From the NCBI GenBank assembly GCA_900659855.1, contig CAACVI010000034.1, positions 62,001-126,000 of the forward strand: a stretch of DNA of 64,000 nt. Reading direction: 5' to 3'. The notes beneath the pieces were generated by a model. It had not been told where the DNA came from, did not search any database, and saw only the letters and a list, made by a program, of their open reading frames with translations. The stretch is from Candidatus Desulfarcum epimagneticum (GTDB lineage Bacteria > Desulfobacterota > Desulfobacteria > Desulfobacterales > CR-1). Both the position numbers and the translations under genes were made by a program. Below, in pieces: positions 12,612-58,517 of the stretch (its first letter is position 1; every line of letters begins with the position of its first letter).

Positions 12612-12840
12612 TTTTCCATGCGCCAGGTTTGATAAACTCGTAAAAACGCTTGGGATGGCTAAGTTAAAAATTCCATATGCTAAAATTTAAGCCACAAGGC
12701 GTGGTGGTTATTTTTAATTGAGGCAATACATGTAGTATGCCTCAATTAAAAATAAGCGCTGCAATGCAGTAGATCGGATTTTTTACGACGCCATCAGGTT
12801 TAAAACCTTCGCCTTTAGGCGAAAAGCGTTAGCATTATTT
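12612..12840 (-). mobile_element. IS200/IS605-type end, interrupted by a small inverted-repeat element
   Basis: Bases 12612-12630 plus 12802-12840 together match the reverse complement of the right end of the 27.7-27.9 kb element. The shared parts are the start (TTTTTCCATGCGCC), the hairpin CCTTCGCCTTTAGGCGAA and the following AAGCnTTAGCATT. The two parts are separated by the 165-bp repeat at 12631-12795, and AGGTTT is present on both sides of it. Matching stops after about 12840, so only the end is recognisable here, not a whole element. No transposase is associated. Confidence 0.6.
12631..12795. mobile_element. 165-bp inverted-repeat element (MITE-like), copy 1
   Basis: The ends are GATAAACTCGTAAAAA and TTTTTTACGACGCCATC, imperfect inverted repeats sharing the GAT...TCGTAAAAA core. 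AGGTTT flanks it on both sides (12625-12630 and 12796-12801), which looks like a 6-bp target duplication. Inside is a hairpin with 17-bp perfect arms (12708-12724 and 12739-12755). The reverse complement of the same element is found at 57231-57380, and a shortened relative at 58445-58517. It has no coding capacity. Confidence 0.8.
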
Positions 12841-26353: not shown

Positions 26354-27166
26354 TTAGGCTGCTTTTTTCAAGGCCGTCATTTTTTCAAATTCTTTTGGGC
26401 TCAGATAGCCCAAGTAAGAATGACGACGTTTGCTGTTGTAAAACATCTCGATGTAATCAACAATATCTCGCCGGGCTTCTTCCCTTCGGAAATACCTGGA
26501 ATCGAACACACGTTCTGTTTTCAGACTCCCAAAAAAACTTTCAGCCACACTGTTATCCCAGCAGTCGCCCTTTCGACTCATGCTGCTGATGATTCCATTT
26601 ACTTTCAACATTTCCTGAAAATCTTTGCTGCAATACTGACTGCCGCGATCTGAATGAAAAATAAGACCGGGTCCTGACCTCCGACGCCAAATAGCCATAC
26701 GCAGAGAATCCATTACCAATTTTCTGGTTATTCTATCACTCATTGACCACCCTACAACCCGGCGGGAATATAAATCCAGAACAACCGCCAGGTAAAGCCA
26801 GCCCTCATTTGTCCATATATACGTGATATCCGAACAATAGACTCGATCAGGCTCAGGCGAAGAAAACTTTCTTGCCAAAAGGTTCGGCGCCACCGGCAGA
26901 TTGTGCTTGCTATTCGTGGTTGCTTTGAACTTTCTTCTCTGCTTTACCTCGACTCCGGCGAGCTTCATTAAAGTTCCCGCTTTTGCCCTGCCGCAAGACT
27001 CTCCCTGAGCCTCCAATTCCTTCGATATCCGTCGAGTTCCGTATGATGCTCTTGACAGTCGATGAATTTCTTTTACCTTGGGGATTAACCGCTCCCGCTC
27101 CCGATGCATCTGTGACTTTTTCCGGTTTTTCCAGGAATAAAAACCGCTTCGGCTTACGCACATCAC
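26354..27166 (-). CDS. IS3 transposase OrfB (DDE integrase core)
   Basis: 270 residues. An N-terminal HTH_21-like region ([29 protein letters not shown]) precedes an rve integrase core. The core has the first Asp in [11 protein letters not shown], the second in [11 protein letters not shown], and the Glu in [25 protein letters not shown] is near the end. All three catalytic acidic residues are present. The frame stays open upstream of the GTG/ATG pair at 27166/27163 into orfA in the -1 frame, so the working transposase is probably the frameshift fusion OrfAB. Confidence 0.92.
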
Positions 27167-57116: not shown

Positions 57117-57533
57117 TCAAAATAACACCTGTCTGACATACCGGTATTTTTCTTTTAATTCCCTGGGATATAATCCGGCCGGCACATCGTCTTCCAAAAC
57201 GTCTCTGAGCGTTTTTTCAGGAACAAGTTTGATGGCGTCGTAAAAAATCCGATCTACTGCGTTGCAACGCTTATTTTTAATTGAGGCATACTACATGTAT
57301 TGCCTCAATTAAAAATAACCACTACGCCTTGTATATCGAATTTTTAACTTAGCCATCCCAAGCTTTTTTACGAGTTTATCAAGTTTCAGAAGCGTATACC
57401 AGTCGTATGTGGACAGCAGTCTTCGGAAAAACAATTTCCGGTCGGGCTCCGGCCACTCTTCCACTTTGCCGTTTATAAAGTCATCCAGGCGACTGTCATC
57501 CAGATTTTGATCCCAAAAGGCTCTGGATAACAT
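57117..57533 (-). pseudogene. Small protein gene split by a 150-bp inverted-repeat element
   Basis: The front codes MLSRAFWDQNLDDSRL... up to TLLKL, then the frame enters the repeat at 57380. After the repeat, the other part reads VPEKTLRDVLEDDVPAGLYP...RYVRQVLF and ends at TGA 57119-57117. Removing the repeat and one AAGTTT duplication joins the parts in frame as LLKL-VPEKT, giving an 86-residue protein. The joined protein somewhat resembles small DUF6922-like proteins found next to nucleotidyltransferase systems, but this is a weak match. Confidence 0.75.
57231..57380. mobile_element. 150-bp inverted-repeat element (MITE-like), copy 2
   Basis: It runs from GATGGCGTCGTAAAAAAT to AGCTTTTTTACGAGTTTATC, flanked by AAGTTT on both sides (57225-57230 and 57381-57386). 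A hairpin with 17-bp arms (57271-57287 and 57302-57318) matches copy 1. Compared with copy 1 it lacks about 15 bases in one arm region. It interrupts a small gene. Confidence 0.85.
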
Positions 57534-58156: not shown

Positions 58157-58515
58157 GGGTTTAAACGGGGGGTTAAACGATTTCAAACATGAGGCTTTAA
58201 ATGCTTAGGCGCGAAGCATGGGTTTGGCGCGAAAAAGAGATTCCGGCGGGCATGGGCATAGCTCCGCTTGGCGGGTCACATAGAATTTTTCGATGCAACC
58301 TTTTGATTTAACTAAAAATAGCGTTTAGAGAAACTATTTCTGAAAAAGATGTTCAAATATTGAACATATTAGAGAAAAAATGTCAAGGGAAATGTGAGAA
58401 AAACACGGGAAAATCAGTAATGATAACCTCGGAAAAAATCACGGGACAGCGTCGTAAAAAATTCCATATAATAAAATTTAAGCCACAAGGCGTGGCGCTT
58501 ATTTTTACGATGCTG
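58157..58515. other. Intergenic region upstream of the regulator
   Basis: About 360 bp with no convincing gene. It holds a perfect 8-bp-arm inverted repeat (58349-58367), an AT-rich tract around 58300-58440 that could carry a minus-strand promoter, and most of a short repeat at 58445-58517. I cannot pick a -35/-10 pair with confidence. Confidence 0.5.
58349..58367. promoter_or_regulatory. Candidate operator: ATGTTCAA-ATA-TTGAACAT
   Basis: A perfect inverted repeat with 8-bp arms and a 3-bp spacer lies in the AT-rich region upstream of the winged-helix regulator gene, about 190 bp from its chosen start. The size and symmetry fit a dimeric winged-helix protein, so autoregulation is plausible but not shown. 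Confidence 0.45.
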
Positions 58516-58517
58516 TC
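58445..58517. repeat. 73-bp shortened inverted-repeat element, copy 3
   Basis: The ends GACAGCGTCGTAAAAA and TTTTTACGATGCTGTC are inverted repeats. Its middle (ATTTAAGCCACAAGGCGTGG) matches copy 1 but the long hairpin is absent. Its right end touches the stop codon of the small gene at 58516-58773. No target duplication is seen. Confidence 0.7.

Follow-up and report, generated by a model that had tools for sequence, protein, structure and literature searches.

MITEs are non-autonomous derivatives of insertion sequences (IS), and examples have been catalogued (PMC3852290). The element that we describe here is like MITEs in general in that it is short, has no ORF, has inverted ends and target duplications, reaches a high copy number and has an interior unrelated to the partner IS. 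Unlike them, it has end sequences of its own, its ends are asymmetric, a 23-bp unit being present there once or in tandem up to four times, and it prefers AANNTT targets. Correia, ERIC and similar bacterial MITEs duplicate TA, and our element is comparable to them in scale, intergenic position and fold-back structure, but it makes a 6-bp AANNTT duplication and its ends are unrelated to theirs. With the REPIN/RAYT system it shares hundreds of intergenic palindromic copies and the occurrence of single ends; the 6-bp duplications set it apart. Within the IS1182 family (NF033551), some members, such as IS1272, replace inverted repeats without making a duplication (PMC5678879). A literature search returned no described family with the ends reported here. 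The element forms a real and abundant family of MITEs, apparently undescribed in the papers searched; its asymmetric end structure is unusual, and its partner probably belongs to the IS1182 group.

Anatomy of the element

The stretch of DNA analyzed (the window) is 64,000 nucleotides long and spans positions 62001-126000 of contig C34 of a 3.26-Mb genome in 52 contigs (G000, hereafter the own genome). A preliminary description of the window placed copies of a small inverted-repeat element at 12631-12795 and 57231-57380 in opposite orientation, flanked by the duplications AGGTTT and AAGTTT, and the sequence confirms these coordinates as well as the duplications, which are exact on both sides. 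Copy A (165 bp, forward strand, GATAAACTCG...GACGCCATC, with a two-unit left end first) lies between AGGTTT at 12625-12630 and AGGTTT at 12796-12801, and copy B (150 bp, reverse strand) lies between AAGTTT at 57225-57230 and AAGTTT at 57381-57386. The two copies are 88% identical in alignment, with one 15-bp indel, and no ORF of 100 aa overlaps either of them. The central hairpin noted earlier is present in both copies, at 12708-12755 (forward strand) in A and 57271-57318 (reverse strand) in B, but its arms, given as 17 bp, measure 18 bp; they are fully complementary and separated by 12 nt in both copies (12708-12725 and 12738-12755 in A).

Copy A starts with an outer 23-bp unit, GATAAACTCGTAAAAACGCTTGG (12631-12653), continues with a diverged inner unit, GATGGCTAAGTTAAAAATTCCAT (12654-12676), both on the forward strand, and finishes with a single unit on the reverse strand, GATGGCGTCGTAAAAA (12780-12795). 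A third, shortened copy (C) had been placed at 58445-58517. This copy is real, but it begins 23 bp further to the left, since two units stand in tandem at the left end, and it spans 58422-58517 on the forward strand (96 bp). It is internally deleted, starts with a degenerate outer unit, GATAACCTCGGAAAAAATCACGG (58422-58444), and is flanked by a decayed duplication, AGTAAT/AATGAT. Intact copies of 96-97 bp with AATATT duplications are found at G000:C4:33126-33221 and C34:167441-167537.

Across the family, the right end is one unit, GATGGCGTCGTAAAAAATCCGATC. At the left end, GATAAACTCGTAAAAA plus 7 nt comes first, and the second unit is either diverged (GATGGCTAAGT, n=25) or conserved (GACAGCGTCGTAAA, n=9). 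The tandem units of the left end usually number two, and arrays of three and four at the 23-bp spacing are also present. Lengths in the own genome are 96-196 bp, below the ~600-bp limit taken here for a MITE. In the four-unit copy at C23:92851-93046 (196 bp), the duplication GGGTTT/AGGTTT is located at the outermost unit, and because duplications sit at the outer unit, this unit is the working end. The terminal inverted repeats, GATAAACTCGTAAAAA and GATGGCGTCGTAAAAA, match imperfectly: in copy B, complementarity is 79% over a span of 19 bp. In the fold-back structure of the complete element, the inner left unit is paired with the right end, as in copy A, and the outer unit stays free; the hairpin is stable, with DNA-folding z of -6 to -8.5. 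At four loci in other genomes (L139, L123, L202, L392), REP-like palindromes of an unrelated kind (GTCATTCCSGCG...) lie between some of these ends; the interior of the element thus varies and the ends are constant.

Insertion, abundance and spread

Three lines of evidence show insertion of the element. Copy B lies within an 86-aa gene without a Pfam match (57120-57533, reverse strand), which it interrupts after codon 51, leaving 51 + 35 codons, and counting AAGTTT once restores a continuous 86-aa frame; homologues of this gene occur in 24 other genomes of the order, and all of the aligned same-order homologues (7/7) are gapless over all 86 residues, including the insertion point. For copy A, the paralogous sequence at C23:366426-366493, CCATGCGCCGGGTTTAAATCC, is empty and has a single GGGTTT. 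Lastly, the copy at C23:257212-257376 sits inside a second dispersed repeat, and the other aligned copies of that repeat (10/10) have no insert, nine of them with AAAATT once and one with AAAATC.

Around 35 distinct copies in the own genome have 6-bp duplications (≤1 mismatch) with the consensus AANNTT; by position, over 35 copies, this is A (32/35), A (25), R, W, T (29) and T (33). Counting all loci, 105 end pairs have an exact 6-bp duplication, versus 7 with a reversed 6-mer control. In the own genome, GAYRRCRTCGTAAAAA has 276 exact occurrences versus 0 for the reversed pattern, and GATGGCGTCGTAAAAA, allowing ≤2 mismatches, has 249 versus 2. Chance can be excluded because both the motif counts (249 vs 2) and the duplication pairs far exceed their reversed controls. 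The earlier reading of the element as mobile and non-coding, with inverted repeats and 6-bp target duplications, for which many copies with matching duplications would count as support, is thus borne out, empty sites and split gene included.

At least 40 scored matches in the own genome span the full element or almost its full length. Within the 1.2 Mb of own sequence sampled, 88 similar stretches make up 9,962 bp, or about 0.8% of the sample. Nearly all copies of at least 100 bp are in non-coding locations (25/26; expected 3.5), and the 149-150 bp class is on average 96% alike. At L378, L392, L173 and G000:C52:36820-36991, adjoining elements are separated by a single 6-bp duplication that both share, which is what repeated use of one preferred AANNTT site for insertion would produce. 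Solo ends with no partner were seen some tens of bases or less upstream of genes at G000:C34:263550 and L163:7804, and we read them as remnants or captured promoter parts. A 1.3-kb segment of contig C1, which by our reading of the sequence would encode a 3-hydroxyacyl-CoA dehydrogenase-like protein, is duplicated (197632-198938 and 203970-205274), and the similarity stops where a MITE starts (205273). Outside the window, a second dispersed repeat, which is about 158 bp long, has the inverted ends AGGGYTCGCTCAAAAAT and contains an inner palindrome, occurs at G000:C23:86522-86676, C34:215475-215632, C1:281757-281914 and other places; this is probably another MITE family.

The element occurs in well over 100 copies in its own genome and in many related sulfate-reducer-type bacteria. 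The ends were present in 16/58 genomes in a search of relatives (own genome counted) and in 19/295 genomes of the phylum, across which the distribution is high in number and patchy. They were also found in 55 GTDB stretches, which by their record titles come from Desulfobulbaceae, Desulforhopalus, Candidatus Tharpella and unclassified Deltaproteobacteria, and in all of the genomes behind those stretches, which were reached by independent loci (14/14), with up to 267 end motifs per genome. One of the phylum genomes, G294, has match coordinates identical to those of G058 (record JACRCD), which puts the window in the phylum of that Deltaproteobacteria MAG. From the names of the carriers, we read the phylum as Desulfobacterota. 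One Deltaproteobacteria MAG (G058, record JACRCD) has 16 complete 161-bp copies that are 97% alike, which argues for recent activity in that genome. A scan of contigs with a gene neighboring the element returned no relatives.

Candidate transposase and rival explanations

Given the duplications, the three proofs of insertion and the recurrence of the ends in high number, we regard the element as a MITE. We think it probable that the family is non-autonomous and moved in trans by a DDE transposase, and that the supplier is a divergent IS1182-group IS of the kind seen at locus L465. The preliminary description had named a transposase element with the same ends as possible support, and L465 (G176:C267) is such an element, in a relative that carries the MITE. 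It is 1905 bp long, with an intact transposase ORF and the ends GATGCCCTCGTAAAAA and GATGGACTCGTAAAAA, the second of which is also a MITE left end in other carriers. It was found as one copy in one genome, and its flanks, ATATTT and AATAGT, are not a matching duplication. The ORF matches the IS1182 model with an E-value of 1.7e-47 and 162 bits, below the curated cut-off of 270, and the protein matches PF01609 (DDE_Tnp_1), PF13751 (DDE_Tnp_1_6) and DUF772. The candidate residues D152, D362 and E487 are invariant in four sequences.

The nearest relative in the plasmid collection, a transposase of Microvirga sp. VF16 that is 36% identical to that of L465, belongs to an element with perfect ends, GACGGGGCGGTAAAAAGT. 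The Microvirga element has no duplication and sits within an inverted repeat, which recalls the inverted-repeat-replacing IS1272 (PMC5678879). Four remoter IS1182 elements begin with GAT or GAC and have duplications of 7 bp (L480, L481) or 6 bp (L483, L484), and the GAY ends and 6-bp duplication of the MITE agree with these. The ends here, GAY-N5-CGTAAAAA, nevertheless differ from the GAYNCTGYTGGCGAA of the IS1182 family. Because of the ends of L465 and the perfect ends of its Microvirga relative, the partner is probably a divergent IS1182-group IS; from these sequence comparisons, we consider the link to be likely rather than proven.

A DDE transposase of another family could instead move the MITEs, with the end match of L465 being coincidental or an IS1182-like gene having been captured. 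The missing duplication at L465 would fit this explanation, as would the carriers G058, G062 and G067, in which PF00872 has no match and PF01609 a marginal one at best; in G058 the searchable contigs have no PF01609 match at all, though PF01609 does match the L465 candidate. Nor did the long repeats of the own genome, over the 1.44 Mb covered and with contigs under ~3 kb masked, include an IS with these ends. However, the ends match on both sides of L465 and again in the Microvirga relative, and the further IS1182 elements share the GAY start and the 6-7 bp duplication. When we searched PF01609, PF00872, rve, ISNCY and Y1 in up to 16 carriers, the matches to PF01609, PF00872 and ISNCY (11-16 genomes) and to rve (10 genomes) had no proper end pair except at L465. 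We therefore think another DDE family rather improbable, though worth keeping in mind because the true partner may sit in masked or missing contigs. In viral contigs, phages and plasmids, 16-mer matches gave no element pair with a matching duplication, and there was no near relative of the L465 transposase except that of Microvirga.

Two further elements were rejected as partners: an IS of the own genome, about 1474 bp long and with PF01609 in four copies, whose ends, CAATGTCATTAACTTAAGC, are unrelated, and an ISNCY element, whose ends, TTAGTGCCTGAACG, are also unrelated. The window itself has an IS3-family transposase gene at 26354-27166, with three equal-scoring copies in the genome (C7, C12, C34).

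It is very unlikely that a RAYT (Y1) transposase moves these sequences as repeats of the REP/REPIN type, as might be supposed from the high number of intergenic copies, the inverted pairs, the strong fold-back and the solo ends. Y1_Tnp is found in all carriers tested, and a MITE end lies within about 1 kb of 5/8 related RAYT genes, but exact 6-bp duplications and empty sites are unexpected for Y1 enzymes, and a RAYT cannot explain the duplications. In addition, most resident RAYT copies (the main group) bear a repeat of their own, ATTATTTGCCTGTCCCC, that is unrelated to the MITE ends. The multicopy RAYT family of the own genome, ~329 aa, is found on contigs C12, C49, C18, C1, C23, C45 and C4 (L247-L256), most copies with the repeat ATTATT(T/G)GCCTGTCCCC. 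The weakest alternative, an immobile but conserved attachment site or RNA element, regulatory or structured, would suit the stable hairpin and its folding z, but an Rfam search gave no match, there are insertions with duplications in a gene and in other repeats, and the empty sites refute it.

Proposed mechanism and significance

On the preferred explanation of a MITE mobilized by an IS1182-group enzyme, a DDE transposase provided in trans would bind the GAY-N5-CGTAAAAA ends, of which the right side has one and the left side usually two, as tandem 23-bp units. It would then move the element and insert it at AANNTT-like sites cut with a 6-bp stagger, producing the duplications. The ends, duplications, target consensus, empty sites and broken gene are direct observations; beyond these, we infer that a divergent IS of the IS1182 group, sharing these ends as L465 does, supplies or once supplied the transposase, for which the 23-bp units would be binding sites. 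A more speculative possibility, which we hold only tentatively, is that a branch of the IS1182 group uses asymmetric, iterated 23-bp binding sites together with ordinary 6-bp insertion at AANNTT, unlike the hairpin-replacing IS1272, and that one MITE lineage has spread through much of Desulfobacterota.

The element is a very abundant repeat in some Desulfobacterota, is located at several contig ends of these assemblies, and inactivates genes. The asymmetry of its ends raises a testable question about transposase binding, and the presence of the same ends across distant genera gives a handle on transposase exchange in uncultured bacteria of the sulfur cycle.
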